Shown here: positions 805 through 9,454 of the stretch, one piece after another
How the letters are laid out: each line of letters opens with the position of its first letter
Position numbering within the stretch: the stretch's first letter is position 1
NCBI GenBank assembly: GCA_903927685.1
Contig: CAIYOB010000323.1
Coordinates: 1-12,540 of the forward strand
Direction: 5' to 3'
Source of the DNA: an uncultured Planctomycetaceae bacterium
GTDB taxonomy: Bacteria > Planctomycetota > Planctomycetia > Pirellulales > Pirellulaceae
DNA length: 12,540 bases
Made by a program: the position numbers and the translations under genes
The notes under the pieces: model-generated
Databases searched by the model: none
What the model saw: the letters and a program-made list of their open reading frames with translations, nothing else
What the model was told of the DNA's origin: nothing

Positions 805-1818
805 CTAGCGTTTCTTGAGCGACACGCTCATCCCGCCGCCCTCCATGTAGAACAACGTTTCGAGGTCGGGATTGGTCGTGATCGCCTTGACAAAGTCCCC
901 GCTGGCCTGGCGGGCATTCATGTTGTGCGCGCAGATCACACCGCCCGGGCGGACCAGTGGCAGCGTTTTCTGCAAGTAGTCCAAGTAGCCTTCCTTGTCA
1001 GCATCAATGAACACCAGGTCGATGGGGCCTTTCAACTCGGCCGCCTTCTCGTGCCCGTCGCCTTCGACCACGGTGATCCACTCGGCGACGCCCGCTTGGG
1101 CAAAGTTCTTGCGCGCCAGGGTGGCCGTCTCGGGATCGATCTCGTGGGTGAACAACTTACCGCCGGTCTTTCGCAGAGCCAGCGACATCCAGATGCCGGA
1201 GATGCCGTTGGACGTGCCGAATTCGACGACCGTTTTCGCGTCCAGGGATTCCGCCAGCGTCCGCAGCAGCCGGCCATCGGCCTCCGGTACGTTCATGCGC
1301 CGGCCTTGCTTCTGCTGGATGTCAGCCAGCGCCGCGAGGATCGCTCGTTCGCCGTCATCCTTGGGCTGCGTCTGGGCGGTGAACATCGTTGCGGAACCCT
1401 CGGCCGCGGGAGGCGGACCACCCGGGCCACCGAATCCGCCAGGGCCAGGGCCTTGTCCCGGTCCGCGGCCCGGGGCCCCTCCGGGGCCGCCTCGCCCGCC
1501 GAACGCCGGGGCCAGTTCCTCGCGTCCCAGCGTGCCGTCGCCGCTCTTGTCGAGCTTGCTCAACGCCTGGGAGGCTCCGGCGATCTCTGCGGCGGACAAT
1601 TCGCCATCGCCGTTGGCATCCAGGGCCGTCATGAGGGGCAGCCGGAACGGGCCGAACGCGCCGGGCGGGACCTTTTGGCCCTCGGCACCGCCACGGCCGT
1701 CTCGAGAACCGTCAGGCCCCCGCTCGCGCCCCGGCGGCTGGGCCAGGACAACGAGCGAAGCGACCAGAAAGATCATGATGCTGACCGAAGCGATCACCTG
1801 TGGTTTCGTCTGTTTCAT
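805..1818 (-). CDS. Exported EF-hand / class I SAM-dependent O-methyltransferase fusion
   Basis: A 337-residue protein in four parts. Residues 1-27 are a signal peptide or N-terminal anchor (hydrophobic core [14 protein letters not shown]). Residues 60-103 hold two EF-hand loops with the expected acidic positions (D67 [11 protein letters not shown] and D90 [11 protein letters not shown]), predicted to bind calcium. Residues 106-138 are a Gly/Pro-rich linker. Residues 155-337 are a Rossmann methyltransferase of the catechol/caffeoyl-CoA O-methyltransferase type: motif [10 protein letters not shown] (197-205), acidic HEID (225-228), IDADK (271-275) and [12 protein letters not shown] (288-299). 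In that family the last motif usually ends in Asp-Asn, where Asp is a metal ligand; here it is His298-Asn299. The start at 1818 follows AGGGAA at seven bases. It is the last gene of the sigma-factor operon. An exported SAM enzyme is unusual because SAM is cytoplasmic, so the domain may be inactive or the N-terminus only an anchor. The substrate is unknown. Confidence 0.88.
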
Positions 1819-1882
1819 GACGTCGTTCCCTGGAACTGAGTGTTATTGGAGCGCCCCCGGGCGGGGCAAACATGCCATCGCT

Positions 1883-1898
1883 GTTCCAACTGTGGAAC
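1883..1898. repeat. Small perfect hairpin between operon genes
   Basis: GTTCCA and TGGAAC flank ACTG, giving a 6-bp perfect stem with a 4-base loop. It lies between the stop of the Gly/Pro-rich gene (1929) and the start of the EF-hand methyltransferase (1818). There is no T-run on the leftward strand. It may be an operator-sized dyad or a processing or attenuation hairpin in a 110-base intergenic gap; chance is also possible. Confidence 0.4.
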
Positions 1899-1928
1899 TT
1901 GGCGGCGTGTGACTGGAGAGGCTGTTCG

Positions 1929-3230
1929 TCACTGAATCCCCTCTGCGGCAGCCTCCGAACCTGGCGGCGGACCACCTCGATCCGGTCCGGCTTGCGGTCC
2001 GCGAGGCGGTCCGTCCGGGCCAGGTTGATCCTGCGGACCCCGGGCTCCACGCGGCAGCTCGCTACCGCGCCCCGCCGCTTCGCGCGGCGGACCTCGACGC
2101 CCCTCCGGTCCACGAGGGCGGTCCGAGCCACGTGCCTCGGGCTCGCCTGGCGGAGGTCCCTGCGGACCAGCTTCCGCGTCCGGCGTCCGGCCGTTTCGAT
2201 CGGGCCGGGCTTGCGGTCGGCGAGGTGGGCCGACGGGCTGCGGCTGGTCCTGAGCGCCCCGCGGTCCGTGCGGCTGGTCGACGTCAGGTCCGGGTGCCCC
2301 CGGGCGAGGGCCTTGGCGTCCATCCGGCCCATGGCCGCCAGCCATGTTGCGTCCATTAGGTCCGCCCGGCGGCGGGCCCTGGCGTCCGGCTTCGGTGCCG
2401 GCCTGGGGTCCGCCCCAATCCGGCCGGAACTGCGGTCCGCGAGGCGGTCCGAAGGACTGCGGCTGGTCCGGCGCGCCCCACGGCCCACGCGGTTGGTCGA
2501 CGTCGCGTCCGGGTGCTCCCGGCGGCGGGCCTTGGCGCCCTTCCGGTCCACCACGCCCGCCAGCCATGTTGCGTCCCTCATTGCGGTCACGTTCCACAGC
2601 CCAGGGCGGCGGTCCCATGTGGTCTCGCGGACCCCGGCGATGTTCAAGGGCGGGGCCTTCGGGTCGCCACTGCGGCGGACCCGGCGGGCCAGCCTGCGGG
2701 CCGCGCGGAGCGCCGTCCCAGCCCCAGGGGCCGTGTGGACCGCGAGCCATGACGGGTCGCTGCGGACGATCTTGCGGGCCCCGGGGGCCGCTGGGCCGAT
2801 CCCACGTTGGTCCCGACATCAGCGGCGGCGGCCCCATCCGGTGCTGGGGACCCCCGCGATGCTCAAAGGCCGGCCCGGCACTTTGCCACGCTGGCGGCCC
2901 CAACGGTCCCGCCCCAGGAGTGCGACCCGCCCCGTCCCAAGTTCCGCGAGGTCCCCAGGGTGGGCCGAACGAAGGCGGCTGGTCCTGCGGGCCGCGGGGC
3001 CCACGGGGCCGATCGGAATCCTGTCCCGGCATTCCCGGGGGTGGTCCCGGAGGGGTGTCCCAGTCGCCCCAACTGCGATCGCCGAAAGCGGCAGGCGGCC
3101 CCGCACCAAAACCATCGTGGGCGGCCACCGCGCTGCCGGCCGAGGTGGCCACACAGCAGGCGGCCAGGGCGGCCACTGGCATCGCCTGCCACAGCCACCG
3201 CATGTCGCACTTCAAGATACCTGTACGCAT
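1929..3230 (-). CDS. Exported Gly/Pro/Arg-rich repeat protein, function unknown
   Basis: A 433-residue protein. A signal peptide (hydrophobic core around residues 12-36, likely cut after GSAVA) is followed by an almost entirely low-complexity chain rich in Gly, Pro, Arg, Gln and Asp. The chain consists of degenerate units of about 73 residues. Recurring phrases are QDQPxxxGPPRGPQ, QGPPPGxPxGRN(M), RQGPxPGAPGxDVDQP, and in the N-terminal part EHR(G/R)GPxxxMGPPP. The repeats are also visible in the DNA. The chain is not a true collagen Gly-X-Y repeat and has no recognisable enzyme domain. The start at 3230 is chosen because AGGAG lies nine bases upstream and the signal peptide begins there; an in-frame ATG exists upstream at 3305. 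The gene lies between two other exported proteins in the sigma operon. It is probably a disordered envelope or matrix protein. Long open frames on the opposite strand reflect this repetitive composition. Confidence 0.75.
   Translation of the reverse strand: MRTGILKCDMRWLWQAMPVAALAACCVATSAGSAVAAHDGFGAGPPAAFGDRSWGDWDTPPGPPPGMPGQDSDRPRGPRGPQDQPPSFGPPWGPRGTWDGAGRTPGAGPLGPPAWQSAGPAFEHRGGPQHRMGPPPLMSGPTWDRPSGPRGPQDRPQRPVMARGPHGPWGWDGAPRGPQAGPPGPPQWRPEGPALEHRRGPRDHMGPPPWAVERDRNEGRNMAGGRGGPEGRQGPPPGAPGRDVDQPRGPWGAPDQPQSFGPPRGPQFRPDWGGPQAGTEAGRQGPPPGGPNGRNMAGGHGPDGRQGPRPGAPGPDVDQPHGPRGAQDQPQPVGPPRRPQARPDRNGRTPDAEAGPQGPPPGEPEARGSDRPRGPEGRRGPPREAAGRGSELPRGARGPQDQPGPDGPPRGPQAGPDRGGPPPGSEAAAEGIQ
1985..2576. 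repeat. 219-bp in-frame tandem repeats within the Gly/Pro-rich gene
   Basis: TGCGGTC(C/G)GCGAGG begins at 1993, 2212 and 2431, an exact 219-base period (73 codons). The best-conserved stretch is 2238-2354 against 2457-2576, which share GGTCGACGTC, GTCCGGGTGC, GGGCCTTGGCG and AGCCATGTTGCGTCC, with a single-codon length difference. More diverged copies continue to about 3050. The pattern indicates expansion by recent unequal recombination or slippage at the 3' end of the gene, while older copies near the 5' end have decayed. Confidence 0.85.
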
Positions 3231-3330
3231 CGTTCGTAACTCCTGTAACCAAGGACAGCGCGCACCGCGACCGCTCTGCACACTGCCAGCGTGTCGCCAA
3301 TGCACAGTTCTAGTTCGGGGAAATGCTCAC

Positions 3331-4161
3331 TTAGAACTGGGTGTCGTCTTCCAACCCCAGCAACTCAGAGACCCGGCGCTGGATGATCTGAGCCTGTGCT
3401 TCCTTCCGCTTGTCGATCGACTCGCGGAGCCGCTTCAGCTCTTCTTCCAGACGCTGGAGTTCAAGCAACCGCCGCTGCTGGCGGGCTTCGAAGTGCTCGG
3501 TAATCGTCTTCTCCAGCTTCTGCTTGATCGCCTCGCGTTGATCCTGCGGGGCCTGCCGGTACTGGACGGCCAGTTCCTGACTCTGGATGGCTAGGTTGAA
3601 ATCCGCCTGCAGCAGCTTGTGCATCTCCGGATCATTCTGTTCCATGGACTGCCAGTCGCCGTGCGGCCAGCGGGGCGGGCCGGACATCGGGCCAAAGCCG
3701 GGCATCATTCCCGGGGTCATTCCAGGCGTCATCCCCGGACCCGCTCCCGGACTCATTCCCGGTCCCGGCATGCCGCCAGCCCCCTCGCCGGGCCGAAAAC
3801 CGCCGCGCTCAAACGGCCCTGCTCCGGGGCCGCCGGCTCCCGGGCCGCCTTCGCCGGGTTGTCCGCCCGGCCGGTCGCCGGATTTGCCGCGCGGATGAAA
3901 GTGCGGCGATTGGTCGGGCCCCTGGCCGGGAAATCCGCCGGGACGCCCGAACTCCTTCGGCCCGCCTGGCCCGCGATCGGCCGGCTTGTCCCCGGGAGAA
4001 CCGGGCCGGAAATCGTCGCCCACCTCGACAGACGCCTCCCGCTTGGGCTGCACGTCCGGCTTCATTTTAGGTCCCGCGTCCTGGGCGCTGGCCCAACTGC
4101 AAACCAACAGATACGCTGCCAGGCTCAGCGAGCCACGGCACATCCAGTTTCGGTTGACCAT
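3331..4161 (-). CDS. Exported Met/Gly/Pro-rich coiled-coil protein, function unknown
   Basis: A 276-residue protein. It has a signal peptide (residues 1-26, ending ASA before Gln27), a Gly/Pro-rich region with a His patch (HFHP, 87-90), and a Met-rich segment (131-163) with repeated PGM steps. A highly charged helical domain (about 177-270) follows; its LEELKRLRESIDKRKEA-type heptads predict a coiled coil. This order is reminiscent of periplasmic metal-linked helical proteins such as Spy, CpxP, ZraP and CnrX, but no family signature is clear, so that is a resemblance only. The start at 4161 is favoured: AGGAG lies eight bases upstream and gives a clean signal peptide. An in-frame ATG at 4191 overlaps the previous gene's stop as ATGA, but would put ten polar residues before the signal peptide. 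It lies immediately downstream of the sigma/anti-sigma pair. Confidence 0.78.
   Translation of the reverse strand: MVNRNWMCRGSLSLAAYLLVCSWASAQDAGPKMKPDVQPKREASVEVGDDFRPGSPGDKPADRGPGGPKEFGRPGGFPGQGPDQSPHFHPRGKSGDRPGGQPGEGGPGAGGPGAGPFERGGFRPGEGAGGMPGPGMSPGAGPGMTPGMTPGMMPGFGPMSGPPRWPHGDWQSMEQNDPEMHKLLQADFNLAIQSQELAVQYRQAPQDQREAIKQKLEKTITEHFEARQQRRLLELQRLEEELKRLRESIDKRKEAQAQIIQRRVSELLGLEDDTQF
3673..3771 (-). repeat. PGM-type methionine repeat segment
   Basis: Codons 131-163 of the coiled-coil protein encode a run of Pro-Gly-Met or Gly-Pro-Met steps (PGMSPGAGPGMTPGMTPGM and onward), seen as repeated CGGGxxCAT units on the plus strand. Methionine clusters of this kind occur in copper-handling exported proteins. 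Copper binding here is an inference from composition only. Confidence 0.7.
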
Positions 4162-4187
4162 GATTCTATCTCCTAACCCAACAGGGT

Positions 4188-4799
4188 TCATAAAGTACCG
4201 TCTTCGATATCTTTCTTGACCTCATCCAGGGCCTGTCCCAACGCGTTCAACTTGCCCGCCTGGGCGTACCAGTCTTCGTGGACCAGGGCCGTGGCCTGAG
4301 CCAACGTGGTGATCTGGGCGTCGAGCGTGTCGTCCCACTCGAATCCGTCCGATCCGGCCGCAAGTTGCGTGTCCGGGCGGGCTTCGGCCGCCGGCGCCGC
4401 CACGGTTGCCGGCGTCGGTTCCACGACAGTGGCCGGCGTCGGCTCCGCGACAGTGGCCGGCGTGTGGGCGTCCCGAGCGATGGCCGGCGAATTCGGCCGC
4501 ACGCCGTCCCCGCCATTCTGCAGCCGATAGGCCACGGCCAAGCCAGCGACGATCAACAGCGAAGCCGCCACAGCGAGCGCCCAGCGAATCGGCCGCCAGT
4601 GCCGCGTTGGACGCGGCGTGACCAGCCAGTTCTCCCACGGTTCGCTCGTCCCCGACTGGGCGTCTGTCAGCAGCTTGCTCAAGGCCAACCAACCCTCGCG
4701 CAGGGCCGCGGTCTCGGCGTCCAGGTCCTCCGGCAATGCGTCGCCGGGAGCCGTCGCTCGTTCCAGCATCTCCTGCAATCGCTTCGTGTCGTCGTTCAC
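4188..4799 (-). CDS. Single-pass membrane protein, probable anti-sigma factor
   Basis: A 203-residue protein. It has a cytoplasmic N-terminal segment (1-68) with acidic helices, one membrane helix (about 72-92, WALAVAASLLIVAGLAVAY), a Pro/Thr/Ala linker with three ATV-x-EPTP-like repeats (115-136), and a C-terminal helical domain (about 153-203) outside the membrane. Its place directly after an ECF sigma gene, with a four-base GTGA overlap (4799-4796), and its topology fit an anti-sigma factor that receives an envelope signal. It has no cysteines and no zinc anti-sigma (HxxxCxxC) motif, so the sigma-binding fold would be another type. The start is GTG at 4799, with GGAG eight bases upstream inside the sigma gene. 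An ATG exists at 4850, but it would overlap the sigma gene deeply. Function is inferred from context. Confidence 0.75.
   Translation of the reverse strand: MNDDTKRLQEMLERATAPGDALPEDLDAETAALREGWLALSKLLTDAQSGTSEPWENWLVTPRPTRHWRPIRWALAVAASLLIVAGLAVAYRLQNGGDGVRPNSPAIARDAHTPATVAEPTPATVVEPTPATVAAPAAEARPDTQLAAGSDGFEWDDTLDAQITTLAQATALVHEDWYAQAGKLNALGQALDEVKKDIEDGTL
4392..4466 (-). repeat. Ala-Thr-Val-Glu-Pro-Thr-Pro linker repeat
   Basis: Three imperfect 24-base units, each containing GTGGCCGGCGTCGG or a close variant on the plus strand, encode PATVAEPT, PATVVEPT and PATVAAPA in the extracytoplasmic linker of the probable anti-sigma factor. This is likely a flexible spacer that varies in copy number. 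Confidence 0.75.
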
Positions 4800-5329
4800 G
4801 GCTTGATCTCCGCGAGTTGTTTGCGCAACATTTCCAGTCCCCGTCGGCAATGGCTCAGGGCAGTGCTCAGCGGACAGCCCAGCGTCTGGGCAATCTCGTC
4901 AAACGTCAGCTGGCCATAGAACCGCAACAGCAGAACTCGCCGCTGGACAGGCGTGAGTTGATCGAGCGCCTCGGCCAGCCGTCCCGCAGCCTCCACCGCC
5001 ATTGCCTTGGTCACAGGATCCCCCTCGTCGCTTCTGGGCTCGTTGAGGCGCCAGCCTTCCTCGCTCAAGGTCTCGACCGGCTTCTTGCGCCGCAGGCGAT
5101 CACAGGCCAAGCGGTCAGCGATCCGCAGCAGATACGTCCTCGCATAGCCTTGTTCCTGGTAGCGTTGACGGCCCTGCCAGGCTCGGCAAAACACCTCCTG
5201 GGCCAGATCGTCGGCCTCGTCGGCGCGGCGCACGATCCCCAGCAAATACCCGCGGACGGCGGGTCCGTGCTCCCGGACCCACTCGGTCATACGCTCGGCA
5301 TCGGGTGATTGTCGACTGCTGGCTGTCAT
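4796..5329 (-). CDS. ECF-type RNA polymerase sigma-70 family factor
   Basis: A 177-residue sigma factor with only regions 2 and 4, as in ECF sigmas that direct RNA polymerase to stress or envelope promoters. Region 2 spans about 17-83, with the region 2.2 core DEADDLAQEVFCRAW (37-51) and a basic end LRRKK. Region 4 spans about 117-172, LTPVQRRVLLLRFYGQLTFDEIA leading into a helix-turn-helix (141-166) and ending LEMLRKQL. The start at 5329 (ATG) fits the usual family length; the frame stays open upstream to 5455 but carries no sigma homology there. The ribosome site is weak. It is the first gene of a five-gene leftward run and overlaps the probable anti-sigma gene by four bases, suggesting translational coupling and an autoregulated unit. 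The ECF subgroup was not determined. Confidence 0.93.
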   Translation of the reverse strand: MTASSRQSPDAERMTEWVREHGPAVRGYLLGIVRRADEADDLAQEVFCRAWQGRQRYQEQGYARTYLLRIADRLACDRLRRKKPVETLSEEGWRLNEPRSDEGDPVTKAMAVEAAGRLAEALDQLTPVQRRVLLLRFYGQLTFDEIAQTLGCPLSTALSHCRRGLEMLRKQLAEIKP

Positions 5330-5400
5330 CACTACCAGGATAAACGGTTGCCGCAGGGATTTATTGCGGGTTGTAGAAAAAGGCGGGAGGACGGGCTCGG

Positions 5401-5489: not shown

Positions 5490-6332
5490 ATGATCATCGG
5501 ATGTTTCGCATTGGTCGAGCCGTTTACGCCGGTCCGGCGGCAGTTTCAGCTGATTCGCGAGATGGGAATCGACTACGTCGACCTGACCGACAGTCACGAC
5601 GGAGCTTCCCTGGGCTCCGAGGCGGGTTTCGTGGCTTCGTTGAGTCTGGACAGCCACCCGGCCAAGATCCGGCAGATGGTCGAAGAATTCCGGCTGACCA
5701 TGACCAGCGTTTGTGCCCACGCGAATCTGCTCGACCCGACGTCACCCGATCGCTACGGCACGGCCGAGATCATCAAAGCCATCCGCCTGGCCGACCTGCT
5801 GGATGTGAAACAAGTCATCACGACCGAACTGGAGCCGAAGACTGACTTCGGCCGCAATTTATCCCATTCCGAAAAGTTGTTCTCGATCCGTGAAAAGCTG
5901 TACGAGCCGGTACTGTGGGCGGAAGAACTGGAAATCGAGTTGCTGCTCGAACCACACGGCGAGCTGACGGACACCGTCGACGGCATGGCCGCGATCCTGG
6001 AGGCTCTCGGTCACGAAGCCACGGTTGGCGTCAACTTGGACACGGGCAACTCGTGGCTGGGCGGCGGCGATCCGCATGAGTTTGTCAAGGCGTTCGGGCC
6101 GCGGATCAAGCATGTGCACTGGAAGGACATGCCCGCCGAGTGGGAATCGCAACGCGGGACGCGATTCGGCTGCGGCATGGGGACCATCCCGCTGGGCGAC
6201 GGCGTCGTCGGCATCCAGCAGCTCGTCGCCGAGTTGAAAGAGATCGGCTTCGCCGGCCCGACGACCCTGGAAGTCGCGGGCGTCGAGAACGTCAAGAAGT
6301 CCGTCGAACGATTGCGGCAGTGGAGCAGGTAA
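5490..6332 (+). CDS. Sugar phosphate isomerase/epimerase-like TIM-barrel protein
   Basis: A 280-residue cytoplasmic protein of the xylose isomerase-like (AP endonuclease 2-type) TIM-barrel family, which isomerises or epimerises sugars, keto-acids or inositol derivatives using a divalent metal. Putative metal ligands occur in the expected order: Glu154 in LLLEPHGE, Asp184 in GVNLDTGN, His208 or His210 in KHVHWKD, and Glu261 in TLEVAG. A GTIPLGDGVV segment (231-240) matches the typical loop before the last strand. The start is firm: AAGGAG lies seven bases before ATG 5490. It is the only plus-strand gene here, diverges from the sigma operon and has no pathway neighbours, so the substrate cannot be named. 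The length is normal for the family. Confidence 0.9.
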   Translation: MIIGCFALVEPFTPVRRQFQLIREMGIDYVDLTDSHDGASLGSEAGFVASLSLDSHPAKIRQMVEEFRLTMTSVCAHANLLDPTSPDRYGTAEIIKAIRLADLLDVKQVITTELEPKTDFGRNLSHSEKLFSIREKLYEPVLWAEELEIELLLEPHGELTDTVDGMAAILEALGHEATVGVNLDTGNSWLGGGDPHEFVKAFGPRIKHVHWKDMPAEWESQRGTRFGCGMGTIPLGDGVVGIQQLVAELKEIGFAGPTTLEVAGVENVKKSVERLRQWSR

Positions 6333-6692
6333 TGGGCTGCCGTGGCTGGGCATCCTGCGGTGGTCCCACCGGTGACCTGGTAGCCGCCGCCACCCACGGC
6401 AAGCTCCGTTTTCAGAACGTGGCGGCTCGCGGAGTCCGATTGGGCCGTGACCGACGTTCCGCCCTGAGGCGTATGGATGACTGTGACGGCAGGCAGGCCG
6501 GGTTCGCCCGCGTCCTGGCTCGCATCCGATCTCGCCGGCCGAGTTCGACCGGACCGTGCAGACCACGACTGCGTCCGTCGCACGGCCTGGGGACTGCGAT
6601 GACGCGGTCGATCTCATCCCCAACCCAATGCGTCTATTCTCGGGGAGAAATCGGCACGACATTTCCGCTCTGTGTGCAGCGCATTGGTTACG
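6333..6692. other. Intergenic stretch between convergent genes, no convincing gene
   Basis: This 360-base stretch separates the plus-strand isomerase from the minus-strand DUF6624-like gene. A perfect 6-bp hairpin CGGTGG/CCACCG (6358-6363 with 6366-6371, two-base centre) lies 25 bases after the isomerase stop and could help end transcription, although no T-run follows. A 7-bp outer pair GCCGTGG/CCACGGC (6339-6345 with 6394-6400) encloses it. Open frames cross on both strands but show no recognisable domain, signal peptide or ribosome site. Base composition shifts toward AT from about 6600. Confidence 0.6.
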
Positions 6693-7373
6693 TCAGTCGT
6701 CAGCATCGGGTGTGTCTGTCTCTATTCCGGTGATTCCAATTCTGATGGTAGATTGCGTGCCGTACTTCTGTGGTTTGCCAATCGACAACTGCCACCGATC
6801 ATATGCCGCTCTTGAGAGCCCCTCAGCCTTTACGACTCCAGCTTCAAAGGCTGACCTCGCCAAGTGGTGGGCGGATTCAAAATCCCCGCTCGAGTTTCCG
6901 TGCTGCAAGATCATTGCCGCATGATACATTGCTTCGCCACTCAACGAGTCGGCGTTCAGGCGGATGATCTCGCGTGCTCTGGAAAGCCGAGCCTTATCGC
7001 GGCCGGGCAGGAGGAGGAATCGTCCACTGTATCGATCCGATTGATCCACGTCGTACATGCACTTGAGCTCCCGCTCAACGGACACCCCGTTTTCGCGCTC
7101 CCAGCCAGGACGGGTTGAGAGAAGAATGCCCAAAATGCCGCTGGCCGCGAACGCACCTAGCAACAACGGCACGAACACCAGTGCTCTTACTGGTTTCCAA
7201 CGCAAGACGCGAAAATGGGTAAGTATGCCCCATGCGAAATAGACTAATCCACCGGCCATCAGTAACCAGCACGAAATCATCAAGAGGCCCAGCGATAGAA
7301 GCCCTGCGATGTCCGTCGCGCATCCCAAGATGAGAAAAAGCAGGCAGGCAGAGATCAGGTATTTCGGCTTCAT
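6693..7373 (-). CDS. Membrane protein with DUF6624-like C-terminal domain
   Basis: A 226-residue protein. The N-terminal third is hydrophobic, with about three membrane helices (roughly 5-22, 24-50 and 63-86). The C-terminal part (about 125-206) matches the pattern I know from DUF6624: a charged N-terminal helix, then AMYHAAMILQHG (148-159), a HLARSAFEAGV helix (170-180), and the closing YDRWQLSIGKPQKYGTQ (191-207). The family's function is not known to me. The start at 7373 is chosen because the first membrane helix begins directly after MKPKY. A GTG at 7439 overlaps the upstream stop as GTGA and would add 22 residues; neither has a good ribosome site. The gene is visibly less GC-rich than its neighbours, which may indicate transfer. 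Confidence 0.75.
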   Translation of the reverse strand: MKPKYLISACLLFLILGCATDIAGLLSLGLLMISCWLLMAGGLVYFAWGILTHFRVLRWKPVRALVFVPLLLGAFAASGILGILLSTRPGWERENGVSVERELKCMYDVDQSDRYSGRFLLLPGRDKARLSRAREIIRLNADSLSGEAMYHAAMILQHGNSSGDFESAHHLARSAFEAGVVKAEGLSRAAYDRWQLSIGKPQKYGTQSTIRIGITGIETDTPDADD

Positions 7374-7435
7374 GCATGCAATTCGACGCGACAGGCCTTT
7401 TCTTGGAAAAACCTCTGCCGACGTGACGACCGGCG

Positions 7436-7663
7436 TCACCGAGCCGCGCCGATGACGCTCACCATTTTCCAAGATCCGATCGCGACTCCGCTACACGCCT
7501 TGGCTCGCCGGTCGCGGTGAGACTGACTGCGAACGATGGCGCCAATCCGCTCCCATCGCCACGCGACGGCCAGGACGACCAGTACGACGCCCGTCGGAAT
7601 CAGGTGCAGCAGCAGGCCCAGAATCCACGGCGTCCAGGTCAAACAGGGTTTCATCTTTTGCAT
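7436..7663 (-). CDS. Small single-pass membrane protein, hypothetical
   Basis: About 75 residues. One strong membrane helix (WILGLLLHLIPTGVVLVVLAVAW, roughly residues 12-34) follows a short basic N-terminus and precedes an Arg-rich tail. No family is recognised. The start is uncertain: ATG 7663 is listed, but ATG 7654 or GTG 7672 (with AAGGA about ten bases upstream) are possible, and the frame is open to a GTG at 7720. Support for a real gene is the clear membrane segment, its position on the coding strand between two genes, and its stop overlapping a possible GTG start of the next gene (GTGA, 7439-7436). It is too short for certainty. Confidence 0.45.
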   Translation of the reverse strand: MQKMKPCLTWTPWILGLLLHLIPTGVVLVVLAVAWRWERIGAIVRSQSHRDRRAKACSGVAIGSWKMVSVIGAAR

Positions 7664-7750: not shown

Positions 7751-9454
7751 TCACGGGCGGTTCGGCGAATCGACGCGGTCGGCCGGCATACCGTTTCGGG
7801 TCCGGAAGGCCACGACGACAGGCGGCAGAGGGACGCCGTCCTGGCTCCGGAACCCTTGGAACCGGTCGGAGTTGAGCATGAACCGATAACTCCAGTTCGG
7901 CTTCAGCTTGACCGACACGGTCCAAGCGGTCCGTGCGGTATCGTACCGCGGCTGGCCCACGAGTTCCGGGAATTCCTGTCCGCCGCCGACCAGTGACCAG
8001 GACTCACCGGCCATCGGCCGGTCGAACACCACGCGGATGTTCTTCAGCCCCGGGTTGACGTCCGTCGCGCCGTTGGCCGGGGAGATCGAGACGACCTGGG
8101 GGCGGGCAGCGTCCGCAACGGACTGCTGGAACAGCTTCCGTCCGAACTCGGGCAGACCGGCCGCCCATCCGGGCGCCTGCTGGCGTTGCCGCTCGGCGAA
8201 CTGGTCGGCAGAGGAGTTGAAGAACTCGACAATCCGCGGAAAGTACGCGTCAAGATCGGCGTACTTGTCTCGCTGGACCTCATACTCACCGAGCAGCTCC
8301 GACAGCTCTCCGATCCACAAGAACTGCCTCGCTTTCTCGGAGTCGATCGCTCGCCGAGCGGCTTCCGGGCCGAGGTGGGTGTGGGTGTAGCGGACCACGC
8401 ACGCGCGGACCAGGGACTCGTACATCATGGTCTTCCACTGTCCGTAGGCCTGCCTCCGCATGGCCTGCTCGACGTGCGGAAAGAGCTTGTTGCCCGCGGC
8501 CTCCAGTTCGTCGGCATGCCGGTCGATGACGGGGTTGGTGTACGAGTGGCAGAATTCGTGGACGACGGTGCCGAGCATCTCCGGTTCGAACAGCGGCATT
8601 CCTTCGGCGTCCGTCTTCCAGACGCCGAGAATACAATACAGCTCCTGCCGACCGTCCGCAGTGCGGCAGCGCGTCCCGTAGTTCGAGCCGCCGTTGAGCG
8701 GCGCGAGCATGAACTTGAAGACCGCTTCCGTCCGTTGCCCGAAGAAATCGTCGAACCACTCGAGATGCGCATGCTTGTCGAGCACGTCCTGCATCCGCGA
8801 CTCGGCCAGTTCATACAACGGGCGATGCTCCTGAATGAACTGGCGAAACGAAGTCTCGTCGACGAACCGCCCGGCTTGTTCCAGGAAGCGGCCGGCTCCT
8901 TCGACGCCCCACCGCGAGTCGAGATCGGCGGGCAAGGGATCGAACGGGACCTTGGCCTGCGGCGCGTACGCGTCGCTCAGGTGCACCGCCATGCTCATGC
9001 AGGCGTCATAAGACACGCCTCGCGTCCGCCGCAGTTCGGCCGCGCACTGCACGGCCGGATGGTCGCGAAACCGGCCAAAGTGCCTTTCCACGTCCTCCAC
9101 GTACGATTCCACTCGTCCTTGCTGATACTCTGGATTGCCCGCGAGTCGAAAAATGATGCTCAAGAGTTCCACGCGAGGGTCAATCCGGACGGTCACCTGG
9201 CGCCCGGAAGCACCGCGCTCGGATTGTCCGAAGGCCGGATCGATGGGCGTCCCGGCAAGCACGCACGCCAGCACCCAGGGGAGGCGTCCGTACCAGGCAC
9301 CAGCGTCTTCACGCGCAACGCCGACGCGCCGGGCGCCGACCGAGGGGACGGGCTTCCCAGGTGGTTCGGAAAGACCCGGGAAAGCCGTTCCGCTGCCGTG
9401 GCGGCGGCTGGCCGCATTCCGTCGCATCACACTGACCATCGCAGTTTCTGACAT
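7751..9454 (-). CDS. Exported DUF4932-type putative metallopeptidase with C-terminal Ig-like domain
   Basis: A 567-residue protein. After a long N-terminal leader whose hydrophobic core is at about 58-76 (LPWVLACVLAGTP), a DUF4932-like region begins with VELLSIIFRLAGNPEY (95-110) and YVEDVERHFGRFRDHPAV. It continues to a zinc-protease-like motif, VVHEFCHSYTNP, with HEFCH at 299-303. Glu346 in MYESLVRACVVRY is a plausible third ligand, as in gluzincins. Residues about 451-553 resemble a Big_5 (SbsA-type) Ig-like domain: PQVVSISPANGATDVNPGLKNIRVVFDRPM. Catalysis is predicted from the motif; the substrate is unknown. The start at 9454 has GGTGA just upstream; ATGs at 9439 and 9427 would shorten the unusually long leader. 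It follows the WD40 gene by 58 bases on the same strand and may be co-transcribed with it. It probably acts outside the inner membrane. Confidence 0.85.
   Translation of the reverse strand: MSETAMVSVMRRNAASRRHGSGTAFPGLSEPPGKPVPSVGARRVGVAREDAGAWYGRLPWVLACVLAGTPIDPAFGQSERGASGRQVTVRIDPRVELLSIIFRLAGNPEYQQGRVESYVEDVERHFGRFRDHPAVQCAAELRRTRGVSYDACMSMAVHLSDAYAPQAKVPFDPLPADLDSRWGVEGAGRFLEQAGRFVDETSFRQFIQEHRPLYELAESRMQDVLDKHAHLEWFDDFFGQRTEAVFKFMLAPLNGGSNYGTRCRTADGRQELYCILGVWKTDAEGMPLFEPEMLGTVVHEFCHSYTNPVIDRHADELEAAGNKLFPHVEQAMRRQAYGQWKTMMYESLVRACVVRYTHTHLGPEAARRAIDSEKARQFLWIGELSELLGEYEVQRDKYADLDAYFPRIVEFFNSSADQFAERQRQQAPGWAAGLPEFGRKLFQQSVADAARPQVVSISPANGATDVNPGLKNIRVVFDRPMAGESWSLVGGGQEFPELVGQPRYDTARTAWTVSVKLKPNWSYRFMLNSDRFQGFRSQDGVPLPPVVVAFRTRNGMPADRVDSPNRP

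Follow-up and report, generated by a model that had tools for sequence, protein, structure and literature searches.

The analyzed stretch of DNA, hereafter the window, comprises the 12,540 nucleotides (nt) of contig CAIYOB010000323.1 from an uncultured Planctomycetaceae bacterium and carries 5 leftward genes between positions 805 and 5,329. The best explanation of these genes, which we consider probable, is that genes 1–3 act as an envelope-signalling switch conserved among Pirellulales and related bacteria, with genes 4 and 5 as its cargo. The conserved core consists of an extracytoplasmic function (ECF) sigma factor (gene 1), a single-pass membrane protein (gene 2), and an exported Gly/Pro-rich coiled-coil protein (gene 3); the 5 open reading frames (ORFs) are not one conserved unit. 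The 5 leftward ORFs of a preliminary description of the window are real, with minus-strand frames at all 5 coordinate pairs, and the GTG start of gene 2 overlaps the sigma stop within GTGA, as described there. The features are as follows:

4796..5329, minus strand: gene 1, ECF sigma factor, 177 residues (Pfam regions 2 and 4)
4188..4799, minus strand: gene 2, presumed anti-sigma factor, 203 residues (position and topology)
3331..4161, minus strand: gene 3, exported Gly/Pro/Met-rich protein with a C-terminal helical hairpin and a C-terminal Phe, 276 residues (model and alignment)
1929..3230, minus strand: gene 4, exported Gly/Pro/Arg-rich repeat protein, 433 residues, 73-residue repeat (repeats)
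805..1818, minus strand: gene 5, exported EF-hand/catechol-type O-methyltransferase fusion, 337 residues (PF01596 and EF-hand stretches)
5343..5368, minus strand: predicted autoregulatory ECF promoter (pattern common to the sigma loci)

Inspection by eye and the structural models served to assign the export signals of genes 3–5, as well as the transmembrane segment of gene 2; the earlier statement that all 3 downstream products carry export signals is retained on that basis.

Conservation of the triad was examined in 44 gene-3 loci, namely the window, 12 loci from a contig search, and 31 further loci. Ten of the 12 contig loci are in metagenome-assembled genomes titled Planctomycetaceae, Thermoguttaceae, Pirellulaceae, Planctomycetia, Pirellulales, or Planctomycetales; the remaining 2 are from Candidatus Anammoximicrobium, which is a planctomycete, and from a genome titled Candidatus Nealsonbacteria (L008). 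The L008 locus carries a typical planctomycete triad and is probably a misbinned contig. In a sample of 296 genomes drawn evenly from the order to which G001 (carrying locus L001) belongs, the gene-3 profile matched at least 61 genomes at E 0.001 and at least 37 at E 1e-20 or better; a search for closer relatives within the same family matched at least 3 of 241 genomes, one already known and two distant. Both the sigma factor and gene 3 were found in 40 of the 44 loci. In 39 of these 40, the window included, the sigma gene comes first on the same strand as gene 3, with a gap of 52–2095 nt, and 35 of the 40 hold an anti-sigma profile match (E up to 0.01). The remaining locus, L083, has a distant tandem pair and no triad, and its sole sigma match lies on the opposite strand. 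No sigma match was found at L011, L058, L064, and L070, 3 of which are cut by a contig end; L058 has only an anti-sigma match, close to the contig end. The loci are related and are not independent events, and genomes G043 and G233 contribute 2 loci each.

A bipartite element upstream of the sigma gene accompanies this synteny. In the window, it reads CGCAATAA (5368–5361), followed by a 14-nt spacer and CGTT (5346–5343), and the sigma ATG begins 13 nt later. The pattern, defined as [TC]GCAAT or TGCATT, then A/T, 11–20 nt, and CGTT, was found upstream of sigma in 38 of 39 loci, the window included, and the 39th (L078) has AGCAATAA with CGTT; the 958,590 bases of those loci contain 56 matches on both strands, these 38 included. 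The commonest form is YGCAATA(A)-N14/15-CGTT, and 6 loci (L054, L057, L066, L068, L073, and L076) have the variant YGCAATT. The sigma start codon usually lies 8–20 nt past the element; at a few loci (such as L059, L071, and L075), no sigma start was found that close to it. Within the window, the element is the sole 13-of-13 match, the next best (11) being located inside gene 4. ECF promoters have as their hallmark AAC at −35 and CGT at −10, and positive autoregulation is common, according to a review (PMC8103513). The CGTT and the AAT 16–17 nt before it resemble this hallmark, with AAT in place of AAC. The element is best read as a predicted autoregulatory ECF promoter of the sigma gene itself, from which the mRNA would be nearly leaderless. 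Synteny and this common element support, for genes 1–3, the proposed unit of an ECF sigma factor, a membrane partner, and exported proteins; genes 4 and 5 fall outside it. Neither the 5368–5343 element nor the conserved C-terminal Phe of gene 3 (described below) was in the preliminary description.

Gene 1 matches PF04542 at residues 18–83 (E 9e-18) and PF08281 at residues 117–168 (E 1.3e-12), and it scores above the cut-off of the NCBIfam sigma70-ECF superfamily model. It has the composition of an ECF factor, with regions 2 and 4 only, a short linker, and 177 residues, and its PDB relatives are SigW, SigK, and RpoE. The model of gene 2, which is of low confidence (predicted local distance difference test [pLDDT] 62), was compared with the N-terminal four-helix domain of class I anti-sigma factors (ASDI); it comprises N-terminal helices (residues 3–15, 28–49, and 55–58), one hydrophobic helix (residues 69–95), a Pro/Ala-rich linker, and a C-terminal helix. 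Gene 2 has at least 83 relatives among database proteins, the window's own included, and 32 of them were used for the family alignment and scan, in which the N- and C-terminal blocks are conserved. The window protein has no Pfam family above cut-off and none in NCBIfam, no Pfam family recurs among the 32 members, and no PDB match to known envelope-stress regulators was found by sequence. The Hx3Cx2C zinc signature is not present in the window's gene 2. Its absence does not exclude an anti-sigma function because the signature marks only some anti-sigma groups (PMC7406223). Gene 2 is presumed to be an anti-sigma factor from its position and its single-pass, anti-sigma topology. The sigma half of the previously described sigma/anti-sigma-like pair is an ECF sigma factor by Pfam, and for the membrane half, membership in a known anti-sigma family was not confirmed.

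The gene-3 protein consists of a Gly/Pro/Met-rich stretch followed by a helical hairpin, in keeping with the Met/Gly/Pro-rich coiled-coil protein described earlier. The hairpin is predicted with a ten-residue mean pLDDT above 90 over approximately residues 171–270, that is to say, the last 100 residues except the very tail; an alternative in-frame start at 4191 is possible. The database contains 37 gene-3 proteins, the window's own included, of which 30 were aligned and scanned for families. The Met-rich stretch is present in only some of the 30 homologues and is absent from many, so the earlier observation of Met-rich elements recurring across the set was not confirmed by this comparison. No Pfam or NCBIfam family was found for the window protein and none recurs among the 30 members; PF13801 (Metal_resist) and PF07813 (LTXXQ) are not among the 25 families listed for these members (E up to 1), nor did either match the window's gene-3 protein. 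No PDB fold match was found at E 0.001 or better.

A conserved feature of gene 3 is its C-terminus. Phe is the last residue in 43 of the 44 loci and in 34 of the 37 database proteins; of the other 3 proteins, P0033 extends past the Phe, and P0031 and P0034 end otherwise, apparently cut short. As a background, 18 of 278 long coding-like ORFs in the same loci end in Phe, gene-3 ORFs included. Acidic residues occur 3–5 places before the terminal Phe in 41 of 43 tails. At the position two places ahead of that Phe, 28 of the 43 have a hydrophobic residue, but the window has Thr. At positions 6165–7604, L083 encodes 2 tandem distant gene-3-like proteins, of which the better-scoring one is without a Phe tail. 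The PDZ domains of AlgW and DegS bind Phe-ended peptides of outer membrane proteins or of the periplasmic MucE, which activates anti-sigma cleavage (PMC8545111). Given this precedent, a Phe-ended exported protein encoded in the core operon of a sigma factor is a candidate PDZ ligand, with a tail recalling those that trigger anti-sigma proteolysis.

Genes 4 and 5 differ from the core in their distribution. The 73-residue repeat of gene 4 was confirmed as a 219-nt unit that occurs 4 times, 3 copies being regularly spaced and the fourth offset; relative to the reference copy, the other 3 show 67, 82, and 70% identity. An ORF rich in Gly and Pro on the same strand (G+P above 0.28, 90 residues or more) starts within 1.2 kilobases (kb) of the gene-3 stop in 8 of the 44 loci, the window included, L006 being uninformative with 135 nt downstream. 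In 3 of the 8 (L007, L054, and L061), the downstream protein is also Phe-ended. Gene 4 has at least 3 relatives: a near-identical fragment, P0122, and P0123. The contig of P0122 matches in size (95,791) that of P0076, a gene-2 relative, and the contig of P0123 matches in size (186,727) that of P0007, a gene-3 relative. Therefore, gene 4 probably travels with the triad in its nearest relatives.

Gene 5 is an EF-hand methyltransferase as previously proposed, with 2 EF-hand loops and an O-methyltransferase domain of the Methyltransf_3 family (PF01596, E 7.8e-25, 87.8 bits against a cut-off of 22), and its PDB relatives are O-methyltransferases including COMT. The five-gene order expected to be conserved was sought and not found: none of the 43 other gene-3 loci holds a full methyltransferase, and 40 of the 43 have at least 2.7 kb downstream (L003, L006, and L059 have less). 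Methyltransferase homologues (E 0.001) occur in 8 of 10 gene-3-bearing genomes. The five-gene unit was rejected on their neighbourhoods, since in 9 gene-3-bearing genomes they lie amid other genes on contigs other than the triad's, and in 2 further genomes they also have other neighbours. At E 1e-40, the methyltransferase was found in at least 26 of the 296 genomes, 7 of them among the 37 strong gene-3 genomes, compared with approximately 3 expected if the two were independent. In L008, a partial match to the methyltransferase query lies 3.9 kb downstream, in an EF-hand/Gly-Pro-rich protein with no methyltransferase domain in the shown sequence. Of the 35 methyltransferase loci, all but L104 and L110 were aligned (33 loci). 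EF-hand-fused methyltransferases appeared in 9 of the sampled genomes so aligned, and 5 of these 9 carry gene 3 (kinship uncorrected). The metal pair, usually Asp-Asn in PF01596 methyltransferases, reads His-Asn in most rows of the gene-5 family (window, L013–L022, and L090–L114) and His-Asp in a few. Several exported O-methyltransferases of this family end in KKR. As the methyltransferase is exported, the source of its methyl donor is a question. In the window, no promoter-like element was found at genes 4 and 5 themselves, so they would depend on read-through. Genes 4 and 5 appear to be accessory, lineage-specific exported cargo behind the triad.

Copies of the element were also found away from the sigma genes. 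Across 31 genomes that carry a gene-3 locus, the strict pattern TGCAATAA-N14/15-CGTTW matched 22 times, and 10 of these matches are at sigma genes and the other 12 are not; in the same genomes, N18/19 spacing and the reversed pattern gave 6 each, and 31 genomes without a gene-3 match gave 5. A loose pattern, GCAATW-N15/16-CGTT, was dropped as unspecific (16–99 matches per genome). Four of the 12 non-sigma matches precede exported EF-hand, Gly/Pro-rich, or O-methyltransferase genes or pairs: (i) in G001, the element precedes a Gly/Pro-rich LTXXQ-matching protein, 18 nt from the longest frame and 87 nt from the likelier ATG; (ii) in G193, it lies 185 nt before an EF-hand O-methyltransferase homologous to gene 5; and (iii) in G043 (53 nt) and G217 (49 nt), it precedes a gene pair encoding first an intradiol dioxygenase, judged by eye to have a twin-arginine translocation (Tat)-like signal, and then an EF-hand Gly/Pro-rich protein. 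Loci with this arrangement are L197 (595–1972) and L179 (reverse complement), where the dioxygenase matches PF00775.

Upstream of methyltransferase genes, a score of 12 or 13 of 13 was reached at 3 of 14 loci in gene-3 genomes (G005, G091, and G193) versus 0 of 21 others, G091 and G193 being probably not independent because the element is at the same position. As a background, the 701,846 bases of the loci used contain 9 matches of at least 12 with the correct spacing, a figure that includes those just named, compared with 2 and 4 matches at two wrong spacings. The intradiol dioxygenase is found in 115 of the 296 genomes (E 1e-40). A scan of 30 dioxygenase loci found a perfect element in 2 of the 5 triad-examined genomes, the query itself and its nearest relative, and one 12-of-13 match (G111) among the 25 other loci, 5 of which have only weak gene-3 matches. 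The dioxygenase was therefore rejected as a general member of the regulon. Other occurrences include GCAATAA-N15-CGTTA in the reverse complement of L155 (G009), upstream of an exported protein judged by eye to resemble a trypsin-type protease with EF-hand-like repeats and a PEP-CTERM-like end. Perfect matches also lie upstream of protease-like, lipoprotein-like, and other genes, and in contigs C28, C37, and C38 of G026, one and the same element-like sequence at positions 10–34 of two and 728–752 of the third suggests a repeat element. Overall, in a few relatives, the element stands before exported EF-hand, Gly/Pro-rich, or O-methyltransferase genes above a modest background, which lends limited independent support to the view that exported EF-hand and Gly/Pro-rich proteins belong with this sigma factor. 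The O-methyltransferase and the intradiol dioxygenase are both from families that act on catechols, and each is associated with an EF-hand module, which we offer only as a lead.

The observed gene content, synteny, promoter element, and tail conservation suggest a circuit in which the ECF sigma factor would be bound and held at the membrane by the co-encoded single-pass anti-sigma protein. Envelope stress would cause the proteolysis or release of gene 2, and the freed sigma factor, acting at the YGCAATA(A)-N14/15-CGTT promoter, would transcribe its own operon as a nearly leaderless mRNA and perhaps also a small set of exported proteins. Gene 3 would be the extracytoplasmic arm of the circuit, a sensor or an amplifier, with its acidic-then-Phe tail as the most suggestive trait. 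The tail may be offered as a ligand to an HtrA-type protease with a PDZ domain, or else directly to the anti-sigma protein, in the manner of MucE and AlgW. Genes 4 and 5 would be reached by read-through from the sigma promoter, and similar cargo elsewhere in a few relatives (the EF-hand O-methyltransferase, the dioxygenase with the EF-hand protein, and the Gly/Pro-rich LTXXQ protein) would each be served by its own copy of the promoter. An extended form of the circuit, a self-ligating ECF system in which the constant, Phe-tailed third gene feeds forward the activation of the anti-sigma protease and the regulon deploys exported, EF-hand-associated catechol-modifying enzymes, is speculative, and we regard it as unlikely. 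In that form, the enzymes (the O-methyltransferase in the window and the intradiol dioxygenase beside an EF-hand protein in 2 relatives) would either sit behind the operon or be driven at other sites by the same type of leaderless promoter.

Several points weigh against a switch with cargo. The promoter and regulon are predictions, the anti-sigma assignment comes from position and topology, and the PDZ idea comes from the sequence of the tail, in which the window has Thr two places before the Phe. Other promoters could lie in the 100- and 110-nt gaps that separate gene 3 from gene 4 and gene 4 from gene 5. Eight of the 12 non-sigma matches look like chance, 6 lying within longer ORFs (2 of them weak) and 2 before other genes, so that the excess over the controls is about 6; 5 of 6 and 4 of 5 control matches were inside ORFs, and a lipoprotein-like ORF follows one control match at 29 nt, in a genome that has no gene 3. 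The wider pattern GCAATAW-N14/15-CGTTW is weaker, with 44 matches in 12 genomes versus 25 for the reversed pattern. Eleven of the 14 methyltransferase loci in gene-3 genomes are without the element, and 2 of the 3 with it are probably not independent. These chance-like matches and the less than twofold excess of the wider pattern also speak for an ordinary ECF sigma/anti-sigma operon in which genes 4 and 5 are unrelated neighbours with promoters of their own and the element matches at EF-hand genes are accidental. The five-gene order unseen in the 43 other loci and the methyltransferase homologues amid other genes fit this explanation too, and exported Gly/Pro-rich and EF-hand proteins seem common in these genomes (an impression, not a count). 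However, the contigs of P0122 and P0123 are equal in size to those of gene-2 and gene-3 relatives, and the element precedes the same dioxygenase and EF-hand pair in 2 genomes and methyltransferase homologues in 3. We consider the ordinary operon with unrelated neighbours possible, though on the doubtful side.

The hairpin itself allows another view, namely that the principal effector is gene 3 itself, produced when needed as a chaperone or structural protein of the envelope with a Spy/CpxP-like role, and that its terminal Phe is a feature of folding or assembly. The high-confidence helical hairpin is consistent with such a role, as is the predicted target in L172 that matches LTXXQ, the Spy/CpxP family, above cut-off. 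By contrast, LTXXQ and Metal_resist are not among the 25 families of the 30 gene-3 members, no PDB fold was found at E 0.001 or better, and the co-occurrence of gene 3 with the sigma and anti-sigma genes fits a circuit component at least as well. An effector role is a tentative alternative to the proposed switch. The preliminary description put forward a surface system responding to metal or calcium, with Met-rich, His, and EF-hand elements as the would-be ion sensors, and the 2 EF-hand stretches in gene 5, the Met-rich stretch in gene 3, and the EF-hand proteins among the predicted targets can be cited for it. But the Met-rich stretch is missing in many homologues, no metal-sensor family was matched, and the EF-hands sit in the proposed outputs, outside the conserved regulators. 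Metal or calcium sensing is left without positive support by the unconserved stretch and the placement of the EF-hands, and we consider it very improbable.

Elsewhere in the window, the gene just downstream of the 5 (minus strand, 180–572) encodes a nitrogen regulatory protein of P-II-like type (PF00543, E 9.5e-17) whose C-terminus is extended by a charged segment, and a DUF4932 protein with a C-terminal Big_5 domain is encoded at 7751–9454 (minus strand). Sequence scans for sigma-70 promoters, terminators, and Rfam families gave none or results at the level of shuffled sequence.

Planctomycetes carry many ECF sigma factors. In the titles and abstract openings of the literature found, there was no worked-out promoter or regulon for a planctomycete ECF sigma factor, and those on planctomycete ECF, anti-sigma, EF-hand, and C-terminal Phe contained no account of the triad or its promoter; earlier planctomycete ECF classifications may include this sigma group. 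A conserved promoter element, a three-gene switch in dozens of genomes, and a few predicted targets open the regulon to direct testing. Should the Phe tail work in the proposed way, the core operon of this envelope-stress circuit would itself supply the protease ligand.

ECF switches with an extra periplasmic component are known in kind, and the triad matches none of the families tested. In the RpoE-RseA-RseB and AlgU-MucA-MucB circuits with DegS and AlgW, Phe-ended peptides are the trigger (PMC8103513 and PMC8545111). Compared with these circuits, genes 2 and 3 match none of the regulators in Pfam, the −35 box differs, and the Phe-ended protein of the triad is the third gene itself. MucE of Pseudomonas aeruginosa activates AlgW through its C-terminal tail (PMC8545111). 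Similar to MucE, gene 3 is exported and Phe-ended after charged residues; unlike MucE, it combines a Gly/Pro-rich region with a long helical hairpin, and its PDZ binding is hypothetical. MucE is a small protein encoded away from the sigma gene. In the CnrYXH-type metal-responsive ECF systems, the sigma factor, a membrane anti-sigma factor, and a periplasmic helical protein are encoded together. The triad likewise encodes a sigma factor, a membrane partner, and an exported helical protein together; it differs in that Metal_resist (PF13801) is not among the gene-3 families and no conserved metal-ligand pattern was noticed in the alignment. CnrY is named in PMC7406223. Finally, gene 5 resembles the catechol and caffeoyl-CoA O-methyltransferases (PF01596), whose family and PDB members its domain matches, and is distinguished from them by its export, its fusion to EF-hands, and, in most aligned homologues, a His in place of the metal-pair Asp.

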